From Natrarchaeobius halalkaliphilus (GTDB taxonomy: Archaea; Halobacteriota; Halobacteria; Halobacteriales; Natrialbaceae), in contig NZ_REFY01000005.1 in the NCBI RefSeq assembly GCF_003841485.1, positions 1 through 64,000 of the forward strand: 64,000 bases of DNA, read 5' to 3'. Shown in pieces: positions 2,214-42,427 of the stretch. Within the stretch, counting starts at the first letter, position 1, and each line of letters begins with the position of its first letter. The notes beneath the pieces were generated by a model, which ran no database searches, was not told the origin of the DNA, and saw only the letters and a program-made list of their open reading frames with translations. The translations under genes and the position numbers were made by a program.

Positions 2214-3869
2214 ATGAGCAAACGAATGCAACAGGGTCGTCCGATGATCGTAATGGGCGACGACGCACAGCGCGTCAAGGATAAAGACGCCCAGGAGCAC
2301 AACATCCAGGCCGCACGAGCGGTTGCACGGTCTGTCCGTTCGACGCTCGGTCCGAAGGGAATGGACAAGATGCTCGTCGACTCGTCGGGTTCGATCACGA
2401 TCACGAACGACGGTGTCACTATCCTCGAGGAGATGGATATCGACAACCCGACGGCCGAGATGATCATCGAGGTCGCGGAGTCCCAGGAAGACGAAGCCGG
2501 TGATGGAACCACGACGGCGGTCTCTCTCGCGGGCGAACTCTTGAAGAACGCCGGCGAACTCCTCGAACGGGACATTCATCCGACGCCCATCATCACCGGC
2601 TACCATCTGGCTGCCGAACGGGCGTCCGAAGAGATCGACGATATCGCGACTTCGATCGACTCTACTGACGTAGAGCGATTGCACAAGATCGCGGAGACTT
2701 CGATGACTGGAAAGCGAGACGAACTCGACAAGGAACCGCTCGCGTCGCTCGTCGTCGACGCCGTCTCGGCGGTAACGATAGAAGGCGAGGACGGTGAGAC
2801 GAGCGTCGATCGCACGAACCTCCTCGTGGAAACGCAGACGGGTCGACACCCCGCCGACTCCGAGGTCGTTGACGGGGCCGTCGTCAACAAGGATCCAGTC
2901 CACGACAACATGCCGAGGTCGGTCGAAGACGCGAACGTCCTTCTGTTGGACGCGCGGATCGAAGTGACCAGCGCAACGGCCGATCCGGAAATAAGCGCAG
3001 GCGGTCGAGAGGCGCTCCAGGGATTCGTCGACCGAGACGAACGGGAACTCAAAGAGAAGGTGCAGAAGATCGCAGATATCGGTGCCGACGTCGTCTTCTG
3101 TCAGCGCGGCATCGACGACCTCGCACAGCACTATCTCGCACAGGAGGGAATCCTCGCGATTCGCCGCGCCAAAAAGGGGGATCTCGAGATCCTCAATGAC
3201 GTTCTCGATGCGACGATCGTCAACCATCTCGAAGGGGCAGAAGAGGCCGATCTCGGATATGGGGACGTCACCCGCGATGAGGACGACGAACTGTTCTACG
3301 TCGAAGGCGAGGACGCTCACGGCGTCACGCTCGTCTTGCGCGGCTCGACCGACCACGTCGTCGACGAACTCGAGCGTGGCGTAACAGACGCGGTCGATGT
3401 CGTCGCTCGAGCCGTCTCCGACGGTCGTGTTCTGGCCGGTGGCGGTGCACCCGAGGTCGAGGTCGCGTCGCGCCTGCGTGCGTATGCGGACTCCGTCTCC
3501 GGACGCGAACAGCTCGCGATCGAAGCCTTCGCCGACTCGCTCGAACTCGTTCCGCGCGTGCTCGCGGAGAACGCTGGATACGATTCCATCGACACGCTCG
3601 TCGACCTCCGCGGAGCGCACGACGACGGCGAGATTCACGCCGGATTCAACGCGTGGACGGGCTCGATCGAGAACACCTTCGAAGCCGGCGTGCTCGAGCC
3701 GGCCCACGTCAAAGAGCAGGCGCTCACCGCCGCGACGGAGTCGGCCAATCTGGTGCTCAAAATCGACGATATCGTGTCGGCCGGCGATCTCTCGACGGAC
3801 AAGGGCAACGACGAGGAACCCGGCGCACCCGGTAGTGGGATGGGCGGCGGAATGGGCGGCATGATGTAA
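2214..3869 (+). CDS. thsA: Thermosome subunit (group II chaperonin)
   Basis: A 551-residue group II chaperonin subunit, full length for the family. It begins with the conserved [20 protein letters not shown] region, has the ATPase motif GDGTTTAV around residues 97-104, and ends in the Gly/Met-rich tail [11 protein letters not shown] typical of thermosomes. These proteins form double-ring ATP-dependent folding chambers in the cytoplasm, closed by a built-in lid. Haloarchaea usually carry two or three paralogues (cct1-3/thsA-C), so the paralogue letter is uncertain. It is monocistronic, with its own TATA box and T-rich sequence after the stop. Confidence 0.97.
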
Positions 3870-37318: not shown

Positions 37319-37444
37319 TCTGGCAACACTCTGTCCGAGAGATTACGATGAACCAGTGTAAGTGTTTCCCTGCCCGGATCTGCGAGAACGTCACGACGCG
37401 GCCTGCGAACCACGAATTTCCGACGAAAAGTACCGCCCTCATCC

Positions 37445-37524
37445 GGTCTACTGTAAGTCGTTACCGGAGCGACCGCGAGCCGTCCTGCGGTCGCTCCGGT
37501 AAAAAGTCACAGCAAACCGTATCA
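37445..37524. repeat. Palindromic element, copy 2 (overlaps a stop codon)
   Basis: An ~80-base palindrome. The core is a perfect 16-bp inverted repeat, 37461-37476 and 37487-37502, with a 10-base loop; outer arms ACTGTAAGTC and GCTGTGACTT (minus strand) pair imperfectly. The right end, read on the minus strand, begins TGATACGG, whose TGA is the stop codon of the membrane-protein gene at 37522. Related to the elements at 7581 and 43706. The hairpin could also act as a transcript end. Confidence 0.75.
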
Positions 37525-38232
37525 GTCGAAGCCCATTCGTGATTTCAGCCGCTGTTGATCGGATTTCTTCTGGGCACGGTTATTGAGGAAGTAGCCCATC
37601 AGAGAGAGGAGGAATGCGATCAACGTGAACATGAACAGGATACTCCCCAGTGCGAGCATGTGGTCGATCTGAATCCCAGCGTCGTATGCGCTCTGTGGAA
37701 TCGCTCCGAAGTGGAACACCAGCGGCGTTACGAACACGGAGAGTCCGAGAACGTACATCCCGTATCCCAGCGTCTCGAGCGTGGTCGATTGACGATACAG
37801 AAACGCGGCTGCCGCCACGAAGGCGACGGGCAAGACGACGAGTTCCAGACCGATCCCGCTCGTCACGTACGCCATGTACACACCGAAGATACTCGACGCT
37901 CCAACTACCGTTCCAACTCGACCCCAATCAATGCCGCCTTCGGTGGCATCTCCGTTCGTCTCCTCCGGTCTGTCTGGTTTGACGTACCGGATCGCCGCCA
38001 CGTACCAACACGCTCCGAAAACCAGAAGCGACAATCCCCAGATGCCAGCGATCCCTGCCCAGACGCCATCGCCTATGACGAAGGCGATAAGCGTCATCAC
38101 TCCCCCCCAGAACGTGATTGTCAACGCGGCAGAACTTCTGATCTTATCGAGGATTCGATACACTGGATTGTTGCGAATCGTTCCCATCACGCCCGAACTG
38201 GACGGCTGATTCTGGGTCAACAGCGGACTCAT
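37522..38232 (-). CDS. Integral membrane protein of unknown function
   Basis: A 236-residue protein with six or seven predicted membrane helices (for example ITFWGGVMTLIAFVIGDG, IWGLSLLVFGACWYVAAI, and ILFMFTLIAFLLSLMGYFL near the C-terminus) and a basic tail. I recognise no family. The start ATG at 38232 is followed by a polar N-terminus, so there is no signal peptide. Its stop codon lies inside a palindromic repeat. The 350-base spacer upstream holds the first dispersed 16-bp-unit repeat. Confidence 0.72.
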   Translation of the reverse strand: MSPLLTQNQPSSSGVMGTIRNNPVYRILDKIRSSAALTITFWGGVMTLIAFVIGDGVWAGIAGIWGLSLLVFGACWYVAAIRYVKPDRPEETNGDATEGGIDWGRVGTVVGASSIFGVYMAYVTSGIGLELVVLPVAFVAAAAFLYRQSTTLETLGYGMYVLGLSVFVTPLVFHFGAIPQSAYDAGIQIDHMLALGSILFMFTLIAFLLSLMGYFLNNRAQKKSDQQRLKSRMGFD

Positions 38233-38393
38233 TGGTCTAGGGATGGTCCAGCTATGTAATGAAATTTTTGGTCGTATTGACCCGGCTTTATGGATCGGTA
38301 ACTATCGTCCCGACTTCCTCGAGTACATATCCGTCGCTCAGTCTGCGTTTTTGCTCACGTCGATGTCCCGACTCGTATCTTCCGCTTGATTTT

Positions 38394-38525
38394 CGCGGTT
38401 CTCGCTCGTGTCGTTGGCTCACGGGTCGTTCCTCCCCGTTCGCTTATCCGCGGTTCTCGCTCGTGTCACTCGCTCCGAACCGCGCTCGCTCCGAACCGCG
38501 CTCGCTCCGAACCGCGCTCGCTCCT
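38394..38525. repeat. Dispersed repeat with tandem 16-base units, copy A
   Basis: A ~130-base element. It starts GCGGTTCTCGCTCGTG, contains CTCACGGGTCGTTCCTCC and a second GCGGTTCTCGCTCGTG, and ends in three perfect 16-base units (CGCTCCGAACCGCGCT) at 38471-38486, 38487-38502 and 38503-38518. A second copy lies at 39469-39611 and an inverted one at 41874-41989. It lies in the otherwise empty spacer between two membrane-protein genes. No coding potential beyond repetitive Arg/Ser/Pro translations. Confidence 0.8.
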
Positions 38526-38582
38526 CAGACCCGTGACCGCATAGCCCTACAATTTAAATAATATGAACGTAGAGTGTACGGT

Positions 38583-39227
38583 ATGGCAACAGGCTTCGTA
38601 ACGGACCCAGAGGGGTTTCTCCGGAAAAAAGCGGCAACCGGCCGATTGTGGATTCCATCGCTGTTCGCAGTTCTCGTCGGCATTGCGTTGCTCTCACAAA
38701 CGTGGCTCATCCGTGTTCAACTGGGCGGTGAGTTCCTTCGCGTTATCGACGCACTCATCATCTGGGGTATGTTCCGCGTCATCGAGGGATTCATCATCTG
38801 GATCTATTTCATCGTCGCGTTCTGGGCGATGGGGATCGCCCTCGGTGGAAAGCCGCTTCTGGGTCACGTGATTCGGGTCGCAGGATGGGGCCTCCCACCG
38901 TTCATCATCGCCGGTCTCGTCTGGGGAGCTGGTTACTACTACGCGCTTCGCGATGCAACCCTCCTCGAGTACGATCTCCAGGGAATCGAAGCCGAGTGGG
39001 AACTCCTCGCTGATTACAAGGCACAGGCCGTCGGTGATCCGTACCTCGTCGGCGCGACGCTCCTCGGAAGCGGTGTACTGCTTATCAGTGCGTACATCTG
39101 GGTGAACGGCGTGAAGACTGCCTGCGATCTCGATAAACGAAATGCGACGATCGCGGTCGGCGTTCCACTCGCTCTCTACGTTCTGTACCGGTTCCTCGCT
39201 ATCTACGGAATTCTCCCGGGACCGTAA
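38583..39227 (+). CDS. Yip1-like integral membrane protein
   Basis: A 214-residue protein with about five membrane helices and a start (TGFVTDPEGFLRKKA) common to haloarchaeal YIP1-domain proteins. Other features are WAMGIALGGKPLLGHVIRVAGWGLPP and a charged loop at ~125-150. The family is of unknown function in archaea. The ATG at 38583 is used; a TATA-like TTTAAATAATATG lies about 25 bases upstream (38551-38563). Confidence 0.78.
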   Translation: MATGFVTDPEGFLRKKAATGRLWIPSLFAVLVGIALLSQTWLIRVQLGGEFLRVIDALIIWGMFRVIEGFIIWIYFIVAFWAMGIALGGKPLLGHVIRVAGWGLPPFIIAGLVWGAGYYYALRDATLLEYDLQGIEAEWELLADYKAQAVGDPYLVGATLLGSGVLLISAYIWVNGVKTACDLDKRNATIAVGVPLALYVLYRFLAIYGILPGP

Positions 39228-39745
39228 ATCTCACATCCCGATTGTCGTCTCGGCTTATTTTCTCGCGTTTACGATTCGCGTCCGACACTCGATCGATACT
39301 GATCGATCCGTACAGCATCTTTCGTGGGACTGCTGTGCCGAGTTACCGGCGTCACCGTCACTATCGGTAGTTCTCACGCCGGAACTGACTCACAATTGCC
39401 CGTTTCTGCGGATGATACGTGTGTGATATAGTGATAACTACACCGATTTACACCAGACCACATAGTTTGCGGTTCTCGCTCGTGCCGTTGGCTCACGGGT
39501 CGTTCCTCCCCGTTCGCTTATCCGCGGTTCTCGCTCGTGTCACTCGCTCCGAACCGCGCTCGCTCCGAACCGCGCTCGCTCCGAACCGCGCTTGCTCCGA
39601 ACCGCGCTCCCGTCGTGCGGTCTGGTGTGCATTGACGTGCAGTGGTGACGATAGCAACCGTTGACTGTCTACCAGCTGATTGCACGGTGTCCGTCGGCGG
39701 ACCAGTCAGTACCCCTCGGTGGCTACCGTGTCCCGACCGATGACG
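39228..39745. other. 518-base intergenic region containing repeat copy B
   Basis: Apart from the dispersed repeat at 39469-39611 I see no gene. The open frame across it encodes only the repetitive translation of the 16-base units. Confidence 0.6.
39469..39611. repeat. Dispersed repeat with tandem 16-base units, copy B
   Basis: Nearly identical to copy A across its length. It has four 16-base units (39545-39560, 39561-39576, 39577-39592, and a variant 39593-39608 with one C to T change). Same orientation as copy A. Confidence 0.8.
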
Positions 39746-39949
39746 CTAGTCCCAGTGTGAGTCCCAGCCGAGCACGAGCAGGATAACGATCGCGACCATT
39801 ACCAGTACGACCGGAACGAGCGTAAACACCGCGATAACGTACGATTCGCTTCCTGGCTCGATAAACAGAAACGAAAACCCGAGCAGGAGCAATATCAATA
39901 CACAGATCGCGAACAACGGCCGAAGCATAGAGCGTGTGATTACCCACAT
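39746..39949 (-). CDS. Small two-helix membrane protein
   Basis: A 67-residue protein with two hydrophobic helices (LFAICVLILLLLGFSFLF and VFTLVPVVLVMVAIVILLVL) and a short polar tail. The ATG at 39949 (MWVITRSM) is preferred to one nine codons upstream. No recognised family; composition is convincing for a real small membrane protein. It stands alone in a repeat-rich region. Confidence 0.55.
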   Translation of the reverse strand: MWVITRSMLRPLFAICVLILLLLGFSFLFIEPGSESYVIAVFTLVPVVLVMVAIVILLVLGWDSHWD

Positions 39950-40200
39950 TGTCGAGAGTATGGGAAACCGATACAAATAGCTCTTTGGGAACAGACCGAT
40001 CCCGCTATCCGGTTACGTTGTTGATCCCGTCGAATCTCCCGTCAGAGTCCGCTTCGAAAATCGTGTGTTATATTGGATTGCTCGTGAGTTCGTCCCGAAT
40101 TATGTGCCGCCGTTTCCGTTACACCCACGTCCAATTCTGCGGTTGACCTGGGAAACCGATACCACAGTTCGTCACATTCGCCGTCCGATTGTGGTAACCT

Positions 40201-41271
40201 TCATCGCAGGTAAAACGGTTGCGTAGCCGTGATCGAACCGCCTCGGCCGGAGAGCTCAGCACGCACGTATGCGGGATCGTCGAGCGTCTCGCTAACCACG
40301 GTTTCGCCGGTCGCGACCGCTTCACCGTCAGCGATCCACGTAATCTCGTGTGCACTGGGTGCGGTGATCGTGATCGAGTTTTCGGTCGACTCGATCGATT
40401 CGATAAACGGTGCCTGTGCGTCTCCGTTGTACTGGACGTAGCTTTTCCCATCACGGAGCGCGTCAGTGACGTTCTGTTTGGACAGCTCTGGAACGAGGAT
40501 AACCGTCCTCGAGCGGTTGAATCGCTTGTCGTAGCGCTCTCGTGCTCTCGCGTGATAGTCGTCCCCACCGGAGGCCCAGATCGGTCGGTCGCTTCCGAAG
40601 TGAGTCAGTAACTTATCCCAGAGCTCTCGAGACGGCGCGCGGTCGTCGCCGTTGAACACTTCGAGACCGAGCAGCGCGTCCGACGATTCGAGTACCGGGA
40701 TATAGAGTTCCCAGTCTTCCGTGGCCGTATACTTACTCGGGTGTGCGAGGAAGGTAATACCACCACGGTCTTCGACTTCTCCGAGGACGGTTTCGACGGA
40801 CTGGTCCTTGCCGTGACCGAGGTCGTTGTCCAGACTCACGATATCGTGGAGTTTCTCGACACCTTCTACGTCACCACGGATTTCGCCACCCTGCAGTGCG
40901 ACCATTCCGAGTTCGTCCGCGTCGACGCCCCACTGCGACCACGGCCAGCTCATCTTGTCCAGATCCGCGTCGACTTCGTCGTAGGGTACCCGTTTGTACT
41001 TCTTTCCGTCGACCTGGTATTCGTGTTCCGTGAGCGAAAACACCGTGTAACCCGCGTTTCGGTACTTCTGAATCAGGACGCCCGGACTCGAGGCCTCCGA
41101 GAGATCGTTCTTTCCGATGTGATCGATCGGAACTCCCTCGAGCGCGACGTCCGGTTCGTGTCTCGCTGTGTCTGCACTGAGTTCGTTTCTTGGCTCGTGA
41201 ACGTGAAATTGTGCCAAGTGGTGCTCAGAATTAGACCAGTCTACTTCTTCGTATGGATGAGTGAAATCCAT
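40201..41271 (-). CDS. PHP-domain-containing protein
   Basis: A 356-residue protein with a PHP-type metal-dependent hydrolase domain: AQFHVHEP near residue 22, SLTEHEYQV, ALQGGEIRG, ITFLAHPSKY, LEVFNGDD and ASGGDDYHARA. The C-terminal ~80 residues look like a beta-sandwich (SITITAPSAHEITWIADGEAV), as in extracellular or polymer-acting PHP proteins. No signal peptide is visible. The first His of the usual HxH motif is present. The substrate is unknown. It is monocistronic with an AT-rich upstream region. Confidence 0.83.
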   Translation of the reverse strand: MDFTHPYEEVDWSNSEHHLAQFHVHEPRNELSADTARHEPDVALEGVPIDHIGKNDLSEASSPGVLIQKYRNAGYTVFSLTEHEYQVDGKKYKRVPYDEVDADLDKMSWPWSQWGVDADELGMVALQGGEIRGDVEGVEKLHDIVSLDNDLGHGKDQSVETVLGEVEDRGGITFLAHPSKYTATEDWELYIPVLESSDALLGLEVFNGDDRAPSRELWDKLLTHFGSDRPIWASGGDDYHARARERYDKRFNRSRTVILVPELSKQNVTDALRDGKSYVQYNGDAQAPFIESIESTENSITITAPSAHEITWIADGEAVATGETVVSETLDDPAYVRAELSGRGGSITATQPFYLR

Positions 41272-41873
41272 ATCTCACCTCGTTGCGTATCAAATATAAG
41301 TTTTCGCATTTCCGTACCCCTACTCATCCCGATCACCGGTAGACGCCTGAAACGCTACCGCGCGGGAGTATGTTGAGTTGATGTTTAATCGGTACTGTCA
41401 TGGAACGAATCCCAGTGATAAGTAATTAATTGTTAGATACGAATCACCACCTCTGAACCAGAGTGTTCGCTTCTTGCGAACAAACCGTCCCACTCTTTCG
41501 AGCGCTTCTGTGTCCCGAAGAACACGCTGATCTGGGTCTGGTGATACCGTTTGCTGTTACACTCGGTGACGGGATCCGTCTACTACGATCAGTACACCTC
41601 GTGTTCGCGATGGTTGTTCGCCCCTCCCGAACAGTGGGGATGGCGTAGCGATTCGTCGTGTCTGTGGGATCTGAGCGGAACGGATCTCGTACACCGAGCT
41701 TATTGTGCCGATCTCCAGACGCCCAACGTGTTTGTGGAATTACAGCCGTATGCGTGTATAACCACTCTCGCAGGCCATCCTCTTTCCTTGTCAATACGGA
41801 TATCGAACTTCTCGATACCATCGTCGCCACTGTACGTTTTGGAGGGGATGCTCACACGACCAGAGCGCGGTTC

Positions 41874-41989
41874 GGAGCGAGCGCGGTTCGGAGCGAGCGC
41901 GGTTCGGAGCGAGTGACACGAGCGAGAACCGCGGATAAGCGAACGGGGAGGAACGACCCGTGAGCGAGTGACACGAGCGGGAACCGTGG
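41874..41989. repeat. Dispersed repeat with tandem 16-base units, copy C (inverted)
   Basis: Reverse complement of copies A and B. Three 16-base units (AGCGCGGTTCGGAGCG) at 41874-41889, 41890-41905 and 41906-41921, then GAGTGACACGAGCGAGAACC, GCGGATAAGCGAACGGGGAG and a second degenerate CGAGCGGGAACCG. Confidence 0.8.
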
Positions 41990-42427
41990 ACTGTGCGATT
42001 AGTATGTAGATCGCTGCAGTTGATACTACAAGATCAAGGTGCGACGACAGCAGCTTTCTCAAATCCCATTCACTCGATCAGTCGAAAACTACGTTCGGCC
42101 CTTCCAAACCACTGGGCTTTCTCACACACTCACTCGTCGAACGCAAACCCGTTTAACCGATCCGCTCGGAATGATTCCATCGCATTTTGTGCAACCGAGT
42201 ATCTCACGCTACGGGTGTTCGCTGGCGTATCCGTTCTGAGCTATCGCATCTCTTATCGCACGCCTGGAGTTTGATTCGGTGAACCGCGTCGACGAAGACT
42301 GTGGTCCGATATCGGTGTACGAATACTGTAAATTGATACGGAAACAACGTTCACGTACACCGAACCAGCGATCGTTGCCATACGACTTCGGCTCTCACAG
42401 CACGCGACGAACTGACTAGCATCAGGA

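Follow-up and report, generated by a model that had tools for sequence, protein, structure and literature searches.

The stretch analysed here (the window) comprises the first 64,000 nucleotides of contig NZ_REFY01000005.1 of the haloarchaeon Natrarchaeobius halalkaliphilus and carries three similar short repeats, at 38395-38524 (+), 39469-39611 (+) and 41864-41986 (-), which we refer to as copies 1, 2 and 3. These places agree within a few bases with an initial annotation, made from the letters alone, which had described dispersed elements with three, four and three perfect 16-bp tandem units and had proposed non-autonomous mobile elements, protein-binding arrays or structured RNA. With copy 2 as reference, identity is 98% for copy 1 and 96% for copy 3 (E <= 3.1e-52), and an additional long copy, the fourth, lies on the same contig at 364059-364175. 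The arrays were recovered with Tandem Repeats Finder: 3.5 units at 100% in copy 1 (38469-38524, +), 4.2 units at 96% in copy 2 (39543-39609, +) and 3.2 units at 100% in copy 3 (41863-41913, -). The arrays as such thus stand, but copy 2 holds three perfect units and a fourth with one change. All three copies also contain a pair of hairpins (H1 and H2) with a purine-rich strand, at 38417-38485 (-), 39491-39559 (-) and 41897-41965 (+), each matched by our hairpin covariance model R2 at E 2.5e-15.

Copies 2 and 3 run on past these cores into inverted repeats, and the cores prove to be the inner part, or cargo, of larger elements with terminal inverted repeats (TIRs) of about 41 bp, built as miniature inverted-repeat transposable elements (MITEs). 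Copy 2 as a whole (TIR-L, hairpin cargo, TIR-R) spans 223 bp at 39429-39651 (+) according to the TIR alignment, and none of 5,000 shuffles reaches the score at either end. Its TIR-L (39429-39468, +) is degenerate, with 30 columns identical to the TIR-L consensus, and a search with R1, a sequence-only model of the TIR (arm), did not return this site up to E 0.5; its TIR-R (39612-39651, -) was found by R1 in the own genome at E 6.6e-8. TA is read on both sides (39427-39428 and 39652-39653), in line with the target-site duplication derived from the Natrialba empty sites described below. Copy 3 spans 208 bp at 41821-42028 (-). One of its arms, on the TIR-L side, is clear (E 2.2e-6, 0/5000 shuffles), the other, on the TIR-R side, is weak (73/5000), and the element is flanked by CA at 41819-41820 and 42029-42030. 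The shuffle test on the flanks of copy 1 found no TIR signal; this copy consists of the cargo core, with divergent genes on both sides. It may have lost its ends by decay, or have arisen by gene conversion or by moving independently.

Judging from comparison with related genomes, the three copies are not a local duplication without conservation in relatives, the outcome that the initial annotation had named as speaking against its proposals. In a first search (E <= 0.01) 35 of 61 genomes were matched, the own genome among them. The syntenic region of Natrarchaeobius AArcht7 has kept the neighbouring genes and lacks all three copies; the window copies are therefore lineage-specific. R1, for which the arms of 50 sequences were aligned (alignment A1), gave 16, 22, 92, at least 151, 119 and at least 150 matches in six genomes at E <= 0.01, with 150 candidates scored in each. 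At E <= 1e-5, R1 matched 47 of 145 Halobacteria (31 of 36 within the window's family) and R2 matched 106 of the 145. No match to R2 was found in ten other genomes (nine bacterial, one Halorutilus), and none to the simple form of the MITE among phage records.

This simple form became apparent from a comparison of the flanks of related copies, in which the cargo core is framed by two similar, distinguishable inverted arms of about 41 bp. By script we found 79 head-to-head TIR pairs, 37 without and 42 with cargo (eight duplicate loci were removed first and one locus is counted twice; as the loci were picked for carrying the element, this is not a genome ratio). Since 33 of the 37 cargo-free pairs span 84-86 bp, the simple MITE is a near-palindrome of 84 bp whose TIRs take up nearly its whole length, and the arrays reported here lie in its loop. 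Cargo-bearing pairs reach 561 bp. No transposase gene is present within the MITE, neither in the 84 bp of the simple form nor in the 208-223 bp of the window copies.

Mobility was assessed by searching the joined flanks of 18 MITE junctions of Natrialba magadii against the genus (seven genomes, N. magadii included). Seven of the 20 aligned stretches, representing four loci, are empty sites with only one TA, compared with a TA at each end of the MITE in the occupied sites; among the remaining 13, one reads TG (at a cargo-bearing MITE) and 12 are too diverged or deleted to be read. The insertion target is CTAG-like (C^TA^G) and the TA is duplicated, which is the typical IS630 pattern. By this comparison the MITE is mobile, and the suggestion of a non-autonomous mobile element is borne out for copies 2 and 3.

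The empty sites also bear on the possibility that the elements are small mobile repeats (SMRs) of the Haloquadratum type, that is, short elements with inverted repeats, no known mover and no target duplication. Like SMR-A, SMR-B and the MITEs of Haloquadratum walsbyi, as presented in excerpts of PMC3119063, the elements are short, haloarchaeal and present in many copies, with a similar size (about 80-110 bp) and marked inverted repeats. SMRs, however, have no target duplication and their ends are unlike any transposon (same source), whereas here the seven aligned empty sites reveal a duplicated TA, and the end is similar to that of an IS630 element. With its defining features failing, we regard this explanation as very improbable. 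A palindrome-associated transposable element (PATE), which is defined by having no TIRs, was likewise set aside in view of the TIRs of copies 2 and 3.

Candidates for the mover are available, as a search with the Pfam domain DDE_3 gave matches in six of six genomes, and ISNma7 and ISNamo16 (two plasmid copies) are annotated as IS630-like. At the three loci whose junctions were read, an element of the ISNma7/ISNamo16 group lies in a CTAG within a MITE arm, and the TA is duplicated; the ends of these IS630-type elements are TAGTAGAC and TAGTAACC. Such insertions suggest that the MITEs serve as targets for the element that probably moves them. The end common to the MITE and ISNma7/ISNamo16 comprises TAGTA and a further one to three bases, and little beyond; at seven other IS630-type loci no convincing ends were found. 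Based on these sequences, the likely mover in trans is a transposase of the IS630 family, from the ISNma7/ISNamo16 group, and a closer parent element of the MITE may exist. With IS630-type MITEs of this group the elements share the short length, the lack of an own transposase, the TIRs, the TA duplication, the CTAG target and, over a few bases, the ends of IS630 elements of related genomes; they differ in that the TIRs make up about the whole 84-bp simple form and that a subset carries an expandable hairpin array.

On its purine-rich strand, hairpin 1 reads CGCGGTTC-GGA-GC-GA-NN-[GNA]-NN-GA-GC-GA-GAACCGCG and hairpin 2 reads GC-GA-ACGGG-GA-..-GA-CCCGT-GA-GC. In both, Watson-Crick steps are divided by tandem GA/GA mismatches, and the loops are small and often of the GNA type. 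What is repeated in the 16-bp arrays is the 5' half of hairpin 1; a second unit of about 54 bp contains the 3' half together with hairpin 2. In 62 loci (four duplicates) the two units occur 1-13 and 1-6 times, respectively, and their numbers rise together (Spearman 0.61). In an alignment of H1 and H2 (A3, 27 pairs), which was chosen by us and from which the pairing was also read, so that it favours the structure, 97.9% of the cells are paired and 12 of 21 pairs are changed on both sides; none of 500 shuffles reaches either value, and the score collapses on sliding the partner. The minimum-energy RNA fold predicted for the purine strand in the window is the proposed structure (z -3.6, against -1.1 for the opposite strand), and z-scores of -1.8 and -1.25 were obtained for these two strands when the element was folded as DNA. 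A second locus (L024) gave -2.9 and -0.9 as RNA. A search of window positions 38000-42400 with the Rfam covariance models found nothing up to E 1.

Perfect tandem units of 16 bp in intergenic position might also be taken for iteron-like binding sites of a DNA-binding protein. The wide range of unit numbers and the covariation as hairpin stems, with no single fixed motif, argue against such sites to an extent that leaves them hardly credible; the protein-binding array of the initial annotation finds no support in the data and was dropped because the unit number is variable. CRISPR was dropped as well, the 16-mers being contiguous and without unique spacers.

The same hairpin pair occurs outside MITEs. 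R2 finds both MITE cargo and stand-alone pairs, which can be aligned along their full length of about 70 nt and agree in their GA steps and small loops. From its hits we took 40 regardless of context (33 outside the window's family, seven inside) and called the surrounding genes with a home-made gene caller. A sense gene lies upstream of 28 of the 40 hairpins, and 15 of the 40 begin at most 3 nt from its stop codon; in 12 of these 15 the first base of the hairpin model is the last base of the stop codon. Among convergent genes, none of 23 ends within 10 nt of the hairpin. The adjacent stops are TAG in 11 cases, TAA in three and TGA in one (15, 9 and 24 for other genes), TGA being rarer next to hairpins (1/15 against 24/48, p = 0.0025). 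Since the pair stands alone directly behind sense stop codons, a role at mRNA 3' ends is proposed. The idea of a structured RNA is thus upheld for the cargo, by covariation as well as by location behind stop codons. In excerpts of PMC8303175, processing sites around stop codons are described for two haloarchaea.

A sample drawn independently of the hairpin consists of genes ending in GGMGGMM, selected by pattern (87 of 145 genomes matched), which we take to be thermosome-like. It comprises 71 gene ends, 41 from the window's family (one in the window) and 30 others. In 31 of the 71, a hairpin whose arm pairs perfectly over 6 bp or more starts 0-6 nt past the stop; shifted controls gave 24 matches at 20 nt, three at 30, seven at 40 and five at 50. 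Those at 20 nt probably represent stems further inside these long hairpins. The 31 include many H1-like hairpins as well as unrelated ones; the position is therefore used beyond this one sequence. The window's own gene of this type, ending at 3849-3869, has no hairpin past its stop. At ten loci of the window's family a different, AT-rich hairpin (CTAAATTTTGC...GCAAAATTTAG) lies directly past the GGMGGMM stop, within the first 55 nt or so. At another locus (L441) a like outer stem follows the stop codon and the loop is reverse-complemented, as if flipped between the arms.

It might be argued that the hairpins behind stops are plain transcription terminators and that their likeness to the MITE cargo is due to chance. 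Sense placement directly behind stops, and the unrelated hairpins that also abut GGMGGMM stops, would fit this, but stand-alone pairs and MITE cargo align throughout (about 70 nt), have GA steps and small loops in common and are recognised by one model, which makes it quite improbable.

More weight is due to the possibility that the hairpin arrays form an independent REP-like (repetitive extragenic palindromic) mobile family, mobilised in single-stranded form by a transposase of the IS200/IS605 or RAYT type and only incidentally present in MITE loops. Cores without TIRs do exist (copy 1, and arrays behind stop codons), and a related purine-rich cap motif is found in other haloarchaeal hairpins resembling what are presumably IS605-type ends. 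On the other hand, cargo orientation relative to the arms is identical in 41 of the 42 cargo-bearing pairs (in the lone exception both ends were scored as the same type), which in our reading points to a single capture instead of repeated insertion. Bacterial GTAG REPs (PMC3733652, in excerpts) are likewise short palindromes beside coding regions, and in many cases they supply a TAG stop or adjoin one; the predominance of TAG here (11/15) would agree with this. The stop type varies (TAA, TAG, TGA) behind GGMGGMM genes, however, and hits away from genes show no constant tag. A TAG in front of the hairpin is mostly found where there is a stop codon. Furthermore, GTAG REPs differ from the elements described here, which have two hairpins with tandem GA steps and, in the mobile form, TIRs. 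Overall, we consider an independent REP-like family unlikely.

The cap motif was followed by scanning genome contigs with the pattern GGAGCGA..GNA..GAGCGAG, which gave at least 120 stretches; 80 were analysed (L201-L280, 84 matches). In several of these, five of them noted individually, the cap belongs to another class of haloarchaeal hairpins (CTCAAGGAG...TAGGG), which we take to be probably IS605-type ends. This cap, for which the search pattern selected, is also the likeness to the sense-overlapping transcripts and guide-RNA ends of haloarchaeal IS1341-type elements (in part after PMC8303175), which differ in having other outer stems and in being part of a coding element.

Among open papers in PubMed Central (main texts outside subscription, partly as excerpts, including PMC3119063, PMC3733652, PMC3403918, PMC8303175 and PMC4572444) we found no description of the MITE or of the GA-step hairpin pair, and six 14-16-base strings taken from the element turned up in no paper there. 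Searches there for ISNma7, ISNamo16 and NmIRS gave nothing relevant, the nine matches being unrelated or concerning the IS6 family, and excerpts of the N. magadii genome paper (PMC3403918) mention neither MITE nor IS630 nor palindromes. As a separate observation, the window contains an imperfect palindrome of about 91 bp at 37438-37530, at a gene's end, with dozens of matches in the own genome (83-98% identity) and presence in three of three genus relatives; by appearance it looks like a second high-copy MITE/SMR-like family.

Taken together, we propose, with a probability of roughly 0.78, that copies 2 and 3 belong to a family of non-autonomous MITEs of the IS630 type, carrying a captured and amplified haloarchaeal hairpin pair that probably acts as an mRNA 3'-end structure. 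The MITE, with its TIRs of about 41 bp starting with TAGTA, inserts at the TA of CTAG-like targets and duplicates it; a transposase of the ISNma7/ISNamo16 group probably moves it in trans. Its loop holds the hairpin pair in a fixed orientation, and after the capture of the pair the 16-bp and ~54-bp units would have been amplified in tandem, most likely through slippage or recombination. Spread by the MITE, the pair may then act at mRNA 3' ends in stability, processing or termination. Comparison directly shows the TIRs, the TA duplication with its empty sites, the fixed cargo orientation, the covariation and the position next to stop codons; the identity of the transposase, the route of amplification and the action as RNA are what we infer.

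Several observations weigh against this proposal. The end common to MITE and candidate mover is only about 6-8 bp long, and another TA-duplicating transposase is possible; moreover, an ISNma7-like fragment was all that turned up in the own genome and no active mover was found there, which fits its few, worn copies. Copy 3 is bordered by CA instead of TA and its second TIR is weak, copy 1 is entirely without TIRs, which implies that the core can occur or move on its own, and adjacency to a stop codon was found for none of the three window copies. The composition of A3 has been mentioned, and the purine strand of one further locus (L018) is not predicted to form the proposed fold (z -1.25).

A wider interpretation, which we put forward tentatively and at somewhat less than even odds, is that the hairpin pair, in which tandem sheared GA pairs take turns with Watson-Crick steps under GNA loops, is an RNA motif of the whole class Halobacteria, placed base-exactly behind stops as a 3'-end mRNA element. 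IS630-type MITEs would have captured it, amplified its half-arms into arrays and spread it, so that a transposon would provide ready-made regulatory structures for 3' ends.

For annotation, Arg/Ser/Glu-rich reading frames across the arrays need not be genes. The expectation that these are widely mis-annotated as proteins is not supported by the plasmid records, since six of the seven that match the whole element list no gene under the match and one is unannotated (the PLSDB gene tables are incomplete). The proposal would account for an abundant class of haloarchaeal intergenic repeats and name their likely mover, and it would tie a mobile element in a testable way to the 3' ends of archaeal mRNAs, where 3'-end control is poorly understood.

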